This document shows, piece after piece, positions 3,542 through 36,634 of a stretch of DNA of 64,000 nt; position 1 is the first letter of the stretch; each line of letters opens with the position of its first letter. The notes beneath the pieces were generated by a model. The model ran no database searches and was not told where the DNA came from. It saw only the letters and a program-made list of their open reading frames with translations. The translations under genes were made by a program, and so were the position numbers. The stretch is from Clostridiales bacterium (GTDB taxonomy: Bacteria; Bacillota; Clostridia; Christensenellales; UBA3700), in assembly GCA_015055975.1 (NCBI GenBank), contig SVHF01000003.1:1-64000 (forward strand), in the 5' to 3' direction.

Positions 3542-5149
3542 ATGAAGAAACTTTTATATGCATTGCTTATTGTAATGCTTTTGGTGGTATCGATGTGCGT
3601 ACTTATTGCTTGCGGAGAGGATTCGCAAGATACTTTGGCGCAAGTTAACGTTAAATTCATGATAGGCGATGCCGTTATTTCAGAAGCAACTTATACAGAA
3701 GGTGATACTGTTGCTAATCCAAATATTTCTGAATACCAATCTTTAACAGTTTCTTATTGGACAGTAAATGGAAATTCAAGACGTGCAATATTCCCATATA
3801 AAGTTGGTAATACTGATTTAGTGTTCTACGCTCATACAACTCAAAGCATAAATGCAACATTCTATGCTGATGGAACAGAAGTCCAAAGTGGTACATATAG
3901 TTCAAATGACTTTATTCAAGCTCCACAAAGCCCTACAAAGGATGGCTATAGATTTAGATATTGGGCAATCAATAATCAAGAAGCATCGTTCCCATATTAT
4001 CTTAATAATGAAACTGAAACTAGATTGAGATTTGAGGCCGTATTTGAAAAATTATATACAGTTCAATTTGTATCTGATGGAAATGTAGTTACAACAAACG
4101 AATATCTAAAAGGCGATACTATTGTTATGGCTCCAACTCCAACAAAATCTAACAATACATTTATTTATTGGCAAGATGCTAATGGCAATAGATTTGAAGA
4201 AGGATCTAAAGTTGTAGACGATGCAACATATACTGCCATTTTTGAAAAAGATTTTTATAGTGCAACATATTATGTTGGTACATCTCAAAAAACATATAAA
4301 GTGCTATATACATCTGGTAAAGTTTTGGATTTAAAATATGAAGGAGATGGCAATTTCTACGGTTGGTATACAACTAAGAATTACACTCAAAAATATGATT
4401 TTTCAAAACCAATTTCTGGTAATGTTTCAATATACGGAAAAGTATATTCAACAGACTATGAAATAATTTATTCAAAAGGATCAAACCAAAAAGCACCTAT
4501 TGACCCATCTAACTTTAATTCAACATACGGTTTTTCTGGCACATCATATCCAACATATATATCAATTAGCGTTGGTGGTGCAAATATTAAAGCTACTTAT
4601 ACTTTCTACAATAATGGTCAAAAATTAACAATTGCATATGATATGATGACTAATGGCGAAATTTTATGCACATATGGTGCTTATTCTCAAATAAAGATTG
4701 TTGTTCCAAAATATAACTATGAAGCTATTAGCTTTAATTCATATACAACATATGATTTGAAAAATGGTGAAGGCAATACATATTACAACGAAAAACTTGA
4801 ACAATTTGGTCTATTTATAGCAAGCGAAGCAAATGCTTATATACAAAGTATATATGATACAACAAAAGCCGATGGAATTATATCTACAGGCGTTGAAGAT
4901 CCAGATTTAAATGTATCATTAAATGTAACTACTTTAAATAACAAAATTTCTGCTACAACAAACTTAAATTACTATTCATTAAAAGTTCAAGATAGCTCTG
5001 GAAATTATGTATATTATTCTCAAAATGCAAACTCTTCATTGACTCAAGAATTAAAAGAAGGAACTTATAAAGTTATTGCAATTTTTGAAAATCCAAAAGA
5101 GGGTTATGTATTAAGACAGATTCTAACTTACGCAATTTATATCGCGTAA
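3542..5149 (+). CDS. Secreted lipoprotein with InlB B-repeat-like (Listeria-Bacteroides repeat) domains
   Basis: N-terminal lipobox ...CVLIAC; repeats of the form GYRFRYWAINNQEASFPY / NNTFIYWQDANGNRFEEGSKVVDDATYTAIFEK. Confidence 0.7.
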   Translation: MKKLLYALLIVMLLVVSMCVLIACGEDSQDTLAQVNVKFMIGDAVISEATYTEGDTVANPNISEYQSLTVSYWTVNGNSRRAIFPYKVGNTDLVFYAHTTQSINATFYADGTEVQSGTYSSNDFIQAPQSPTKDGYRFRYWAINNQEASFPYYLNNETETRLRFEAVFEKLYTVQFVSDGNVVTTNEYLKGDTIVMAPTPTKSNNTFIYWQDANGNRFEEGSKVVDDATYTAIFEKDFYSATYYVGTSQKTYKVLYTSGKVLDLKYEGDGNFYGWYTTKNYTQKYDFSKPISGNVSIYGKVYSTDYEIIYSKGSNQKAPIDPSNFNSTYGFSGTSYPTYISISVGGANIKATYTFYNNGQKLTIAYDMMTNGEILCTYGAYSQIKIVVPKYNYEAISFNSYTTYDLKNGEGNTYYNEKLEQFGLFIASEANAYIQSIYDTTKADGIISTGVEDPDLNVSLNVTTLNNKISATTNLNYYSLKVQDSSGNYVYYSQNANSSLTQELKEGTYKVIAIFENPKEGYVLRQILTYAIYIA

Positions 5150-9668: not shown

Positions 9669-10706
9669 ATGAGTATTAAAAAAGTAAAAGTTGGAAATCT
9701 AACAATTGGAGATAAGGATATCATTGTTCAATCAATGACAAATACTAAAACATCAGATGTAGATGCTACAATTGCACAAATTCTTTCTTTAGAAAAGTGT
9801 GGTTGTGAATTAGTTAGATGTACTGTTCCAACAAAAGAAGATGCATATGCATTAAAAGAAATTGTTAAAGCTGTTCATATTCCAGTTGTTGCTGATATTC
9901 ATTTTTCATCTGAACTTGCAATACTTGCAGCAGATAATGGTGCAGCAAAAATTAGAATCAACCCAGGAAATATTGGATCTTTAGATAAAGTGAAGTATTT
10001 AGCTCAATATCTAAAAGAAAGACAAATTCCTATACGTATTGGAGTAAATGGTGGTTCTTTAGATAAAAAATATAAGCATTTGAATCAAGTAGACGGCATG
10101 GTTGAAAGTGTTTTAGAACACGTTCATCTTTTAGAAGATAACAATTTTGATGACATAGTCATCTCTTGTAAATCTTCAAATGTATTCAACATGATAAAAG
10201 CATATAGAAAAATACATGAATTATTACCATATCCATTACATATTGGAGTAACTGAAGCTGGAACATATACTCAAGGCTTAATTAAAAATTCAATTGGTAT
10301 TGGTGGGTTATTAGTTGATGGCATAGGAGATACAATAAGAGTTTCTTTAACAGATACTCCAGAAAAAGAAATCTATGCAGCACAAAATATTCTAAAGGCT
10401 TGCAATTTATACAATAAACCATATTGTGAGGTTGTATCTTGTCCAACATGTGGAAGAACTGAAATAAAGGTACAAGAATATGCTGATGCAATAGCGGATT
10501 ATTGTAAAGATATAAAAAAGAACATCAAAATCGCCGTTATGGGATGTATTGTGAACGGTATTGGAGAAAGTGAAGGATCTGACTTTGGTGTTGCTGGCGG
10601 AAAGGATAAATCCGTTATATTTAAAGATGGTAAACAACTTGAAGTTGTATCAAATGATAAAATTTTAGATAAATTAAAGGAGCTTGTAGATAATTTCAAT
10701 GGATAA
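9669..10706 (+). CDS. ispG: 4-hydroxy-3-methylbut-2-enyl diphosphate synthase
   Basis: VQSMTNTKTSD...RINPGNIG...CPTCGRTE...GCIVNGIGE. Confidence 0.97.
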   Translation: MSIKKVKVGNLTIGDKDIIVQSMTNTKTSDVDATIAQILSLEKCGCELVRCTVPTKEDAYALKEIVKAVHIPVVADIHFSSELAILAADNGAAKIRINPGNIGSLDKVKYLAQYLKERQIPIRIGVNGGSLDKKYKHLNQVDGMVESVLEHVHLLEDNNFDDIVISCKSSNVFNMIKAYRKIHELLPYPLHIGVTEAGTYTQGLIKNSIGIGGLLVDGIGDTIRVSLTDTPEKEIYAAQNILKACNLYNKPYCEVVSCPTCGRTEIKVQEYADAIADYCKDIKKNIKIAVMGCIVNGIGESEGSDFGVAGGKDKSVIFKDGKQLEVVSNDKILDKLKELVDNFNG

Positions 10707-12291
10707 ATTCCTTATTGAATTTAACGAAGTAACTAACAATAAATTTAGTTATTTAAGAATAGACGACGTTGTGCCTGTTAAAAATGAAGAAACAAATACA
10801 GTTTCTTTATCTATAACGTTTGTCGTTCCATATGATATCTACAACGATCCAGAAAAATTTAATATGGATGTGAAAGCAGAAATAGAGAATGCAACAATAT
10901 CTTTACTTCCTAAAAATGTGAATTGTCATTTCAAATATGACAAAATCATGGTTATCCCTCAAGTTGTTACAAGATTTGTAACCGATTTTATTAGAGATAA
11001 TTATCAAAAATTATTTAATGGTAAATATTTAGCAAAAGATATTCAAGTAACTGTTTCTTCAAACGATGTAAATATTGTAATACCTGTAGATGAAACAATT
11101 TATAGTTTTTGTGAAAATAAAGGAGTAGGCGATAAGCTTATTGAGTATTTGGACTCAAAATACAGCGCAAATAACGTTGTAAAGTTCAAGTCAATGAAAA
11201 TGCCCGAAACCGAAGAATTCAAGTTAAATCACGCTACAAAATTCGTTGACGATGGGTTGATTATTTGCAAAAAGAATTTGGTAATTGTAGGTGGCCCAAT
11301 TGCTGATCCTCCAATTGCTATTCAAAAATATAAAAAACCAGTTGCTGAAGCTACAATTTGTGGGGAAGTTATTAGCATTGAAAAGAAGAATTATACAAGT
11401 AAAAAAACTGGCAAGCAAAGGATATTCTATGCTATAAGCATAAAAGACCCATTGGGAGCTGTTATGCCATGTGTATATTTTGTTAAAAATTCAAGAGCTA
11501 AAAAGTCCACTGCAGATAAAATAAAAGTTGGAGATCAAGTTATTGCAAACGGGGAACTTGTAACATCAAATTACAATGGCGCTTTGAATATGTTTATAAC
11601 AAATGTAATGTCATGCTTTATAGATTATGATGGTACAAAACAAAAATTTGCATACATTAAAAAGCTTACTCAAAAAGCAGTTATTCCAACTCCAAAGCCA
11701 TATACAAAAAAAGAAGAAGAAAAACCTTTAACACTATTTGATGAAGTTCCATATATTTGTCCATATCTAAGAGAAAATGAATTCACAATATTTGACTTAG
11801 AAACAACCGGACTTATTTCAAAAGAATTTATGCCAAAGATTGTAGAAATTGGTGCTGCAAGAATTAAAAATGGAGAAATTATATCTACATTTGAAACACT
11901 TGTAGATCCACAAGAGCATATTCCAGAAGATGCCTCAAGAGTTAACCATATCTACGATAATATGATTGATGAAGCGCCAATTATTGCGGATGCAATAGGA
12001 CCATTTTTGAAATATGCATTGGGCTCTATTCTAGTTGGACATAATGCAGTTAATTTTGATGCAAAAATTGTTGAATATTATGCAAAAGAAAATGGATATA
12101 CATTTGATTTTGAAGTTTTAGATACAAATAAACTTGCACTTGAAGCTGGAATTACAAATAAATATATGTCTTTAGCAAATCTATGCAAAGCTTTCAATAT
12201 TGTAAATGATAATCCTCATAGAGCATTAGGGGATGTTATAGCTACAGCAAAAGCCTTTATTGAGCTTGCAAATAAATTGAGATTAGAATAA
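10699..12291 (+). CDS. PolC-like protein: N-terminal and OB regions plus DEDDh 3'-5' exonuclease; no PHP or polymerase core
   Basis: OB-like ICGEVISIEKKNYTSKKTGKQRIFYAISIKD; exonuclease motifs FDLETTG / HNAVNFD / HRALGDV. Ends after the exonuclease domain at 530 aa; follows ispG where polC lies in many Firmicutes. Confidence 0.8.
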   Translation: MDKFLIEFNEVTNNKFSYLRIDDVVPVKNEETNTVSLSITFVVPYDIYNDPEKFNMDVKAEIENATISLLPKNVNCHFKYDKIMVIPQVVTRFVTDFIRDNYQKLFNGKYLAKDIQVTVSSNDVNIVIPVDETIYSFCENKGVGDKLIEYLDSKYSANNVVKFKSMKMPETEEFKLNHATKFVDDGLIICKKNLVIVGGPIADPPIAIQKYKKPVAEATICGEVISIEKKNYTSKKTGKQRIFYAISIKDPLGAVMPCVYFVKNSRAKKSTADKIKVGDQVIANGELVTSNYNGALNMFITNVMSCFIDYDGTKQKFAYIKKLTQKAVIPTPKPYTKKEEEKPLTLFDEVPYICPYLRENEFTIFDLETTGLISKEFMPKIVEIGAARIKNGEIISTFETLVDPQEHIPEDASRVNHIYDNMIDEAPIIADAIGPFLKYALGSILVGHNAVNFDAKIVEYYAKENGYTFDFEVLDTNKLALEAGITNKYMSLANLCKAFNIVNDNPHRALGDVIATAKAFIELANKLRLE

Positions 12292-13236
12292 TTATTTCAA
12301 TTTATTTTTATCTGCGCCTTTTACCAAAAATTCCCAAAGTAGAGAATCGTCCGGCAAAATAGATTCATCTAAATATCCACAATATTGTAGTTTTTCATAC
12401 AATTCTTTTCCATATGGATTTTTAGAATCTTTAAGCATTTTTTCAAGATATGTATGGTATAAAAGTGGCTCATATAGGTGAGTTGTATCTAAAAGATAAT
12501 TTGCAGATACTCTATATGGTTTAATATATTTATCTTCGCCTGCACATACGTTATTCCACATCTCTAGAGTTTCTTCAACAGTTGTTCCACGAGTTAGAGA
12601 ATCTCTAATCAGTCTTCTCATGAATCTTAATAATTTAGCAGGTATTATAGTCGTTCCGTTTATTTGGAAATTTGAATATACGCAGATGTAAACTCTATAA
12701 AATAGAGAAGACTCCATTTTTAATAATTTTGGATTAAGTGCGTGAGTACCTTCAATGACAATTATATCTTGGTCGGTCACTTCAATATGATTTACTTCTT
12801 TCTTTCTTGTACCTGTTTCAAAATCAAAGATAGGAAGATCTGTTTCATAGCTTGTTATTAAATCTTGGATACATGAATTAAACTTTTCTAAATCAAGGAT
12901 ATCAAAGTTTTCAAAATCGTATTTTCCATCAGGAAGGATAGGGGTTTGATCTCTATTGATATAAAAATCGTCTAAAGATATTGCAACGCATCCTTTCCCT
13001 AATTCATTAAGGGCGGCTTCTAGCTTTTTTGAGGTTGTAGTTTTCCCTGAAGAAGAAGGTCCTGCAAGTAAAACAAATCTTTTTGAACCATAGATAATTG
13101 AATTTGCAATTACATCGATTTCATCTTCATATTTTCTAGAAGAAAACTTGATAAGTTTATCTAACTCATATTGTGCTTGTTCATTGATTTTTTGTAAATC
13201 AAGTTGTGTTTTTGTTACGCCCGTAATATTTTCCAT
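12292..13236 (-). CDS. Uridine kinase-like nucleoside kinase
   Basis: GPSSSGKTTTSKKL P-loop, SLDDFYINRDQTP; start trimmed to ATG 13236 (MENITG) with SD GTGAGG; track start 13263 lies upstream of a TATACT -10. Confidence 0.85.
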   Translation of the reverse strand: MENITGVTKTQLDLQKINEQAQYELDKLIKFSSRKYEDEIDVIANSIIYGSKRFVLLAGPSSSGKTTTSKKLEAALNELGKGCVAISLDDFYINRDQTPILPDGKYDFENFDILDLEKFNSCIQDLITSYETDLPIFDFETGTRKKEVNHIEVTDQDIIVIEGTHALNPKLLKMESSLFYRVYICVYSNFQINGTTIIPAKLLRFMRRLIRDSLTRGTTVEETLEMWNNVCAGEDKYIKPYRVSANYLLDTTHLYEPLLYHTYLEKMLKDSKNPYGKELYEKLQYCGYLDESILPDDSLLWEFLVKGADKNKLK

Positions 13237-13395
13237 TTTTGCCTCACGCAAATAGTATAACATACTATAACTTAATTTTACATAAAGATTTATTTCCCTT
13301 AAATACGCACAAAATTATTTTTCTTTACATTTATAATACATTTGCGCTAAAATATTTGTATCGTAAAAAGTTATTTTATAAACGGAGGATTAGTT

Positions 13396-13815
13396 ATGGC
13401 TAAATGTAAAGTTTGCGGAAGCGATTTAGTTAAGAAGAAGACAAAGTCTGGAGAAGTTGTATTATACTGCCCAGATTGCAAAAAGATTTACAGATTAAAA
13501 GCAAAGGCTGAAGAAGCAGCAAAGAAGGTAGAGGAAGAGGAAGAAGAAGAGGAAGAAGAAGCTCCTGTTGTAGCTCCAAAGAAAATACCTGCTAAGAAGG
13601 CTCCAGTCGTTGAAGAAGAAGAGGAAGAAGAAGAGGAAGAAGTAGCAGCTCCAGCTCCAAAAGCAGCTCCAATTCCAGTTGTTGCTAAGGAAGAACCAAA
13701 GGCAGCTCCAGCAGTAGATAACAAATCTTTAGAATCAATTGCTGATTCTTTAGCAGAAATCAATGCTTCATTGAAGGGATTACTAAAGATCTTCAACAAC
13801 ATCTATAAGTCTTAA
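13396..13815 (+). CDS. Zinc-ribbon protein with Glu-rich low-complexity linker
   Basis: CKVCGSDLVKKKTKSGEVVLYCPDC zinc ribbon; two E-runs; C-terminal helix; SD GGAGG. Confidence 0.75.
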   Translation: MAKCKVCGSDLVKKKTKSGEVVLYCPDCKKIYRLKAKAEEAAKKVEEEEEEEEEEAPVVAPKKIPAKKAPVVEEEEEEEEEEVAAPAPKAAPIPVVAKEEPKAAPAVDNKSLESIADSLAEINASLKGLLKIFNNIYKS

Positions 13816-13942
13816 TAAATAAATATATTATATAAAACGCTTTACTTTTAAATATTTATTGCGTAATATAATAGTAGTTTTAAGATTGAATAACTTAAAA
13901 GCGGCTTGAAAAAAGTCGCTTTTAGTTTTGAAAGGAGGACGT

Positions 13943-14401
13943 ATGTCACAAATTACTGATAAAGTTGCAGAATTTGTAAGACCAATTATCGAAAATAACG
14001 GTATGGAACTCGTTGATGTTGAATTCAAAAAGCAATATGGACAAGATACTTTAACTGTTTTTGTAGATAAAGAAGGTGGTATGGATTTAATCGCTTGCGA
14101 AAAAATTCACAACGCAATTTCTGACCCACTAGACGAATTAGATCCAACAAATGGTAAGGCATATGTTTTAAATGTTTCATCTCCAGGATTGGATAGACCA
14201 TTCAAAACACAAAGAGATTATGAAAAGCATTTAAATCAAGATGTTGAAATCTCTCTATATGCACCAATTGAAAAACTTAAGAAATTTGAAGCTAAACTTT
14301 TAGCATACAATGTTGATTCTATCGACGTTGAATACAAAGGTAAAAAAATAAACATAGATATTAAAAACATAGCTTTAATCCATGAAGCTATAAAATTTTA
14401 G
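13943..14401 (+). CDS. rimP: Ribosome maturation factor RimP
   Basis: PIIENNGMELVDVEFKKQYG...VSSPGLDRPFK; start at ATG 13943 after AAAGGAGG. Confidence 0.95.
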   Translation: MSQITDKVAEFVRPIIENNGMELVDVEFKKQYGQDTLTVFVDKEGGMDLIACEKIHNAISDPLDELDPTNGKAYVLNVSSPGLDRPFKTQRDYEKHLNQDVEISLYAPIEKLKKFEAKLLAYNVDSIDVEYKGKKINIDIKNIALIHEAIKF

Positions 14402-14410
14402 GAGGACAAA

Positions 14411-15523
14411 ATGGCAAACAAGAAAGAGGCTACTACAAAGAAAGCAAGTAGCGCAAAGAAAGAAATTACAAGCAAAGACTTTTTCGAAGCATTAGACGGA
14501 CTAGAAGCTGCTACAAAAATCACTAAAGAACAATTTATTGAATATTTAGCTGCTGGTATTTCATCTGCTTATAAGAAAGAATGCGGTGAAGCTCGTAATA
14601 TTCTTATTCAATTAAACCCTGAAAAATGCACAATCAGAGTTACAGCTTACAAGAAAATTGTTGAAGAAGTAGAAGATCCAGAGAAGGAAATCTCTCTAGA
14701 AGATGCTTTAGAAATCAATCCAAAAGCTCAAATCGGTGGTGTTATTTCAGAGGATTTAAAACCAAAGGAATTCTCAAGAATTGCAGCTCAAACTGCAAAG
14801 CAAGTTATCACTCAAAAGCTAAATGATGCTACAAAGAGTATAGTTTTAGAAGAAATGTCTAAAAAAGAGGGTGAAATCGTATCTTGCCAAATCAGAAGAA
14901 TTGAAGGTGACAATATTTACGTAGATATTTCAGGTTCTACTATGGAAGGTTTAATGTTAAAGGGCGATCAAGTTCCAACAGAAGAATATTCAGTAGGCCA
15001 AAGATTAAAAGTATATGTTCGTAAGATTTCTACAGATACAAGAGGAAATAGCCATGTTTTAGTTTCTAGAACAAATAATGGATTTATCAGAAGATTATTC
15101 GAAATGGAAATTCCAGAAATCAAGGCTGGTCTTGTTGTTATCAAGAAGATCGTTAGAGAACCAGGATACAGAACAAAGGTTGCTATCGCTGCAACTGATC
15201 CAACAATCGATGCTGTTGGTGCATGTATCGGACAAAAGGGTATGAGAATCACAAACATCGTTGACGAAATCAACGGCGAAAATATTGATATCGTACCATA
15301 TTGCGAAGATAAGAGAGAATTTATCGCAAGAGCTCTAAGCCCAGCAAAGGTTGTAGCTGTTGCTATCAACGAAACTTTAAATACTGCTAAAGCTTTAGTT
15401 CCAGATGATATGTATCTAAAGGCTATCGGTAAGAAAGGTTATAACGCAAAGCTTGCTGTTAAATTAACAGACTTCAAGATTGACGTTAAGAAGATGAGCG
15501 AAGAAAGCGAGGGAACATATTAA
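14411..15523 (+). CDS. nusA: Transcription termination/antitermination factor NusA
   Basis: S1/KH architecture; VAIAATDPTIDAVGACIGQKGMRI. Confidence 0.97.
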   Translation: MANKKEATTKKASSAKKEITSKDFFEALDGLEAATKITKEQFIEYLAAGISSAYKKECGEARNILIQLNPEKCTIRVTAYKKIVEEVEDPEKEISLEDALEINPKAQIGGVISEDLKPKEFSRIAAQTAKQVITQKLNDATKSIVLEEMSKKEGEIVSCQIRRIEGDNIYVDISGSTMEGLMLKGDQVPTEEYSVGQRLKVYVRKISTDTRGNSHVLVSRTNNGFIRRLFEMEIPEIKAGLVVIKKIVREPGYRTKVAIAATDPTIDAVGACIGQKGMRITNIVDEINGENIDIVPYCEDKREFIARALSPAKVVAVAINETLNTAKALVPDDMYLKAIGKKGYNAKLAVKLTDFKIDVKKMSEESEGTY

Positions 15524-36559: not shown

Positions 36560-36634
36560 TGGCAGGGGAGACGCGACTCGAACACGCAACCGACGGTTTT
36601 GGAGACCGTAGCCCTACCATTGGGCCACTCCCCT
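36560..36634 (-). tRNA. tRNA-Trp (anticodon CCA), 3' CCA encoded
   Basis: Reverse complement AGGGGAGTGGCCCAATGGTAGGGCTACGGTCTCCAAAACCGTCGGTTGCGTGTTCGAGTCGCGTCTCCCCTGCCA folds as cloverleaf; loop CTCCAAA. Confidence 0.95.

Follow-up and report, generated by a model that had tools for sequence, protein, structure and literature searches.

Three sets of DNA polymerase III alpha subunits (DnaE1; PolC with DnaE1; PolC with DnaE3) are distinguished in the relevant passages of surveys from 2013 and 2026, which also record exonuclease-less PolC variants and DnaE1-only Clostridia. A passage of PMC3919608 asks what PolC is for if DnaE1 performs bulk replication in Clostridia. The division of work between PolC and DnaE1 in this class is experimentally uncharacterised. 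In Bacillus subtilis, PolC proofreads DnaE in trans (PMC5627055). Cryo-EM structures of PolC do not resolve its N-terminal domain (NTD) (PMC12592400).

The protein described here, henceforth referred to as NOE (a name coined from NTD-OB-Exo), has the same gene slot as the PolC-type Pol III of Clostridia with PolC and DnaE1. It shares with that PolC the domains NTD-I and NTD-II, the OB fold and the DEDDh exonuclease, in the same order, but lacks the PHP domain, the polymerase core, HhH and the C-terminal clamp motif, and a linker with a clamp-like motif replaces the first half of PHP. Like E. coli Pol III epsilon (DnaQ), NOE is a separate DEDDh polypeptide with a clamp-like motif beside its exonuclease, and it would be expected to proofread for a DnaE1 alpha subunit through putative alpha binding. 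Unlike epsilon, it descends from PolC, contains an additional NTD and OB fold, and carries the motif before rather than behind the exonuclease. In B. subtilis, the PolC exonuclease corrects DnaE errors and a polymerase-deficient PolC is the laboratory counterpart of NOE; that organism differs from the NOE lineages in having a DnaE3-type DnaE and in still relying on PolC as its main polymerase (PMC5627055). The exonuclease-less PolC of some Clostridia and Negativicutes, as presented in passages of PMC3919608, is likewise a domain loss within the PolC of Clostridia with DnaE1, but the opposite one, with the polymerase kept and the exonuclease dropped. The stand-alone DnaQ proteins of mycobacteria and Treponema are treated in part of PMC12926913 as non-canonical, proposed additional proofreaders beside the DnaE1 PHP domain. 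Unlike NOE, these proteins are not derived from PolC. To our knowledge, they contain neither a PolC NTD nor a PolC OB domain. No retained NTD-OB-Exo protein appears in the relevant passages of those two surveys from 2013 and 2026, and no description of a NOE-like protein was found in the open-access literature, to which the search was confined; the architecture does not belong to an already described family there.

The NOE gene lies in the window, by which the whole 64,000-nucleotide stretch of DNA analysed is meant. The features of the locus are as follows.

9669–10706, plus strand: ispG, upstream neighbour of NOE.
10699–12291, plus strand: NOE, a truncated PolC (NTD-OB-Exo) of 530 aa in the polC slot; exact ORF coordinates.
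10699–10947, plus strand: PolC-type N-terminal domain I, residues 1–83, from the AlphaFold2 model and a profile match to full PolC NTDs (probability 98.1).
10957–11202, plus strand: PolC-type N-terminal domain II, residues 87–168, from the AlphaFold2 model and the profile match to full PolC NTDs.
11266–11622, plus strand: OB fold, residues 190–308, colinear with the OB fold of PolC 9qpc/3f2b.
11623–11772, plus strand: linker, residues 309–358, in place of the N-terminal half of the PHP domain of full PolC, from alignment with 19 full-length PolC of the order.
11725–11745, plus strand: PLTLFDE, residues 343–349, a degenerate copy of the QxxLF clamp-binding-like motif.
11773–12282, plus strand: DEDDh 3'-5' exonuclease domain, residues 359–528, catalytic residues D366, E368, D454, H507 and D512.
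12292–13815, both strands: a udk-like gene (minus) and a Glu-rich, low-complexity, zinc-ribbon-like gene (plus), between NOE and rimP in this genus only.
13928–15523, plus strand: rimP and nusA, the genes 3' of polC in relatives.

An RNase_T exonuclease was detected by Pfam at residues 364–520 (E = 6.8e-27), and all five DEDDh residues are invariant among 27 members of the window's family (f1). The OB fold match (residues 219–302, E = 7e-4) is under the Pfam cut-off when taken alone, yet 27 of 27 family members match. The N-terminal ~190 aa were aligned by hhalign to the NTD of full-length PolC from the same order with a probability of 98.1% (E = 1e-13) over 151 columns spanning both NTD halves; seven control families, unrelated to PolC and encoded at these same loci, scored 0–1.4%. 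The curated Pfam NI and NII models gave no match to single NOE sequences. Pfam likewise gave no match to PHP in NOE or the other family members, and none in NOE to the polymerase core (PF07733, finger, HhH), whereas control PolC proteins matched PHP and full PolC controls matched every polymerase model.

The AlphaFold2 model of NOE (pLDDT 90) contains two alpha/beta N-terminal domains, the OB fold, the linker and the exonuclease. Its best PDB match by Foldseek was Enterococcus faecium PolC 9qpc, which was also the best match in a PDB profile search with the 27-member family profile (E = 9e-51, OB fold and exonuclease colinear); the T. maritima PolC exonuclease was among the best matches of that search as well. 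The PolC exonuclease outscores DnaQ/epsilon as the nearest sequence to NOE, and the DEDD exonuclease equivalogs NF005903–NF005907 (PRK07883) gave 65–113 bits, under their cut-offs of 454–1038. NOE retains NTD-I, NTD-II, the OB fold and the DEDDh exonuclease of PolC and has lost PHP, palm, thumb, fingers, HhH and the C-terminal clamp motif. The first-pass annotation, made from the window sequence, had described a PolC-like ORF with a related N-terminal part and a complete DEDDh exonuclease but no polymerase, and these results agree with it on each point. It had also placed the loss past the exonuclease; the absence of a polymerase there stands, but the extent of the loss was understated, as the first half of PHP, in front of the exonuclease, has been lost as well.

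The end of ispG (10706) overlaps the start of NOE by 8 nt, and the two genes form an operon, with likely translational coupling. The gene order dxr-rseP-ispG-[NOE or PolC]-rimP-nusA was found at every locus with sufficient flank except those of f28, which are without dxr and ispG, so the assignment of NOE to the polC position by the first-pass annotation was well founded. NOE-rimP gaps are no longer than PolC-rimP gaps, local insertions aside; the polymerase debris is therefore gone. In the window, the convergent uridine-kinase-like gene has its stop side at 12292, directly after NOE. The polC-rimP interval is otherwise fixed, and this insertion of udk-like and zinc-ribbon-like genes is genus-specific. 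At the f28 loci (L099–L101, genomes of 0.8–1.3 Mb), rseP stands directly 5' of NOE, and the MEP pathway has possibly been lost or relocated.

NOE was found in 16 of about 33 families of the order. Fourteen were read at sequence level (f1, f3, f7, f9, f13, f14, f16, f18, f19, f24, f28, f29, f30 and f32), and f8 and f20 were assigned by frame length only. Full PolC of about 1400–1480 aa was read in f2, f4, f10, f11, f12, f15, f17, f21, f23, f31 and f33, with one f12 copy cut by a contig end. A tree of eight neighbour genes (81 taxa, 2899 columns, outgroup from other orders) grouped the 51 NOE taxa together to the exclusion of every PolC taxon (FastTree 1.0, SH-aLRT 100). FastTree and fast IQ-TREE recovered the same NOE clade with differing sister groups. 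Since the NOE taxa are monophyletic, one old truncation accounts for all of them, and NOE is almost certainly this lineage's own polC, shortened in situ by a single event in an ancestor shared by at least 16 families.

Outside the order, NOE was absent among the matches listed from a sample of 391 genomes of the class, which included 19 from the order itself; the best outside-order match listed (240 bits) covered the exonuclease only, within a 1456-aa frame. It was also absent among the matches listed from 81 genomes spread over the phylum. Many phylum members outside the class (G697, G725, G743 and others) have a PolC of ~1200–1280 aa that was matched only in NTD/OB; the exonuclease insertion is apparently absent from it, the reverse of NOE. 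The NOE of f30 (L125:5154–6500) has just 448 aa, with NTD and exonuclease kept and the OB region missed by the profile.

A search of the genome that contains the window (1.59 Mb) for full PolC or a PolC fragment recovered as Pol III alpha only a single PF07733 protein, a DnaE of 1229 aa that begins with PHP and ends with OB. One other RNase_T protein, KapD-like and of 313 aa, is encoded in that genome. Exactly one alpha subunit, DnaE-sized where the frame was complete, was found in 44 of the 46 genomes of the window's family, and two in none. Across 297 genomes of the order only two states were seen, NOE or full PolC. The 163 NOE genomes gave one alpha match in 146 cases, none in 4 and two in 13, the second matches being split DnaE genes or DnaE-like or short proteins that score higher with the DnaE than with the PolC profile. 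All 25 full-PolC genomes tabulated have at least two alpha matches, PolC and DnaE. The DnaE PHP site was intact in 21 of 21 sampled sequences and the strict clamp motif present in 20 of 21, from NOE and PolC lineages alike; in a passage by Timinskas and colleagues (PMC3919608), these two features mark a DnaE1 that can replicate a genome unaided. DnaE1 is the sole replicative alpha subunit after the truncation of PolC. A second DnaE-like protein, of 740–1070 aa in some cases and 270–400 aa in others, occurs in several NOE genomes (L213–L226).

Three other accounts of the gene were weighed against truncation in place. The first-pass annotation had considered that polC was split and its polymerase half moved elsewhere, and a gap in one genome could hide it, the window's own assembly being 98% complete in 42 contigs. 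No PolC polymerase occurs in any of the 163 NOE genomes, many of them >95% complete, and this clade-wide absence refutes the split, to which we give practically no credence. Its other suggestion, a stand-alone paralog, is superseded, as the conserved slot identifies NOE as the truncated polC ortholog itself. That an independent DnaQ-type exonuclease merely occupies the polC site could draw on the exonuclease-domain tree, which rests on too short a segment to separate NOE from PolC, is poorly resolved by itself and requires 2 label changes for NOE, though it is compatible with a single origin. The PDB profile matches, the homology of NTD and OB fold to PolC, their colinearity and the conserved slot rule this out, and its probability is negligible. 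A frameshift or assembly artefact is excluded by the same architecture in 16 families, and the earlier remark that simple frameshift decay was not evident proved correct: in f1, NOE has 500–565 aa and the same architecture in 42 of 46 genomes, at 21–69% identity.

In full PolC, the first PHP half (ELHxHTxMS...TDHGVVQAFP) lies between OB fold and exonuclease. The alignment with the 19 full-length PolC showed ~50 residues of other sequence, not PHP, at this place in NOE. A strict motif, defined as Qx[SDNTAG][LMIVF][FLYM], was found in the linker of 19 of the 21 NOEs outside f1 with an intact exonuclease, where shuffled sequences would give 0.5; its variants include QLNLF, QQNLF, QASLF, QLDLF and QENLF. 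The clamp-binding consensus given in a passage of PMC3919608 is QL[S/D]LF, with positions 1, 4 and 5 mattering most. Among 18 complete sequences of full PolC from the order, 17 have the strict motif at the very C-terminus and the other ends in SQVCLF; the NOE C-terminus is without this motif (QLSLF), and the similar one sits in the linker. Because the linker motif is present on both deep NOE branches, it is probably ancestral in the clade, and its sequence suggests clamp binding. The motif is weakened within f1, where the strict form is found in 14 of 42 copies (28 without) and a looser NLFD-type form in 36 of 42. The window's copy, PLTLFDE, has lost the Q, and its congeners have QYTLFDE and QTSMFEE. 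Among exonuclease-dead NOE copies, the strict motif was found in 3 of 16.

DEDDh residues have been lost in f16 (6/6), f32-g84 (3/3) and f19 (7/8 sampled). These lineages are three separate branches of the eight-gene tree, and the loss occurred independently at least three times. The dead-exonuclease NOEs keep length, locus, operon and fold, and mostly also the ispG overlap. A model of one of them (L110, pLDDT 87) still matches PolC as well as the DnaQ fold. In the dead exonuclease domains pN is far below pS; synonymous sites are saturated, so only pN < pS was used and no single dN/dS ratio. The retention of length, locus and fold together with pN < pS shows that the protein is selected without catalysis, and the loss of catalytic residues in three lineages means that proofreading is not the sole selected function. 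Compensation by solo ~190-aa exonucleases (L146–L149) was considered and rejected, as several dead-exonuclease genomes have a single profile match and some intact genomes also have a solo protein. A degenerate DEDDh site was also seen in the full-length PolC L133 and L134 (f10) and L135 (f12); exonuclease decay thus occurs inside intact PolC as well.

The function that we consider probable for NOE, judged from its sequence, is that of a clamp-tethered subunit of the DnaE1 replisome that would proofread in trans and would have a non-catalytic role besides. The sliding clamp would hold NOE at the fork through the QxxLF motif of the linker, probably together with NTD contacts; the OB fold would take the frayed single-stranded 3' end, and the exonuclease would correct DnaE1 errors in trans. 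NOE would in this way play the part of an epsilon subunit, added to the PHP nuclease of DnaE1. Trans-proofreading of DnaE1 is proposed because B. subtilis PolC performs this service for DnaE; in structure, NOE is a PolC pared down to that service. With an intact PHP nuclease in DnaE1, a second proofreader may not be needed. The non-catalytic role is suggested by the persistence of the protein after its exonuclease died in three lineages, where a tethering or organising activity would suffice.

The same three deaths suggest, more tentatively and as something we hold rather less likely than not, that the NTD-OB-Exo module of PolC suffices by itself as a replisome hub. Retained once the polymerase was discarded, it would organise a DnaE1-only fork while bound to clamp and ssDNA, and the function under selection would be partly or mainly non-catalytic. 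It is unlikely that NOE as a whole is mainly a non-catalytic replisome scaffold, binding clamp, ssDNA and DnaE1 via NTD, OB fold and linker, with a secondary or dispensable exonuclease. The repeated loss of DEDDh with length, locus, operon and fold kept, and the constraint even on dead exonuclease domains, are consistent with such a scaffold, but every other lineage has an intact active site, the window's family among them (27 of 27 members), so that selection maintains catalysis across most of the clade. Many roles, such as repair trimming and RNA processing, are filled by stand-alone DEDDh proteins, and NOE could by that analogy have been repurposed off the fork, as a clamp-guided nuclease trimming 3' ends in repair or as an RNA-processing exonuclease; the absence of the strict clamp motif from part of f1 would fit. 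This we regard as distinctly improbable, as the PolC-specific NTD and OB architecture is kept rather than the exonuclease alone, NOE is the only PolC-type exonuclease of the genome, and the clamp-like motif is probably ancestral in the clade.

The NOE clade, a large group of gut-type Clostridia, amounts to a natural separation-of-function experiment in at least 16 families. With DnaE1 present, the PolC polymerase turned out to be dispensable there and the N-terminal module with its proofreader did not. As a small protein, NOE lends itself to direct tests of the PolC NTD, trans-proofreading and clamp sharing. Bacteria with NOE are predicted to be naturally insensitive to inhibitors of the PolC polymerase, e.g. 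ibezapolstat, and annotation of NOE as 'PolC' from its exonuclease is misleading.

Elsewhere in the window, a 535-aa lipoprotein-like secreted protein with InlB-type repeats (recognised by eye) is encoded at 3542–5149 between pyrH and frr, and the only Rfam match of the window is a single tRNA gene at 36563–36634 on the minus strand.
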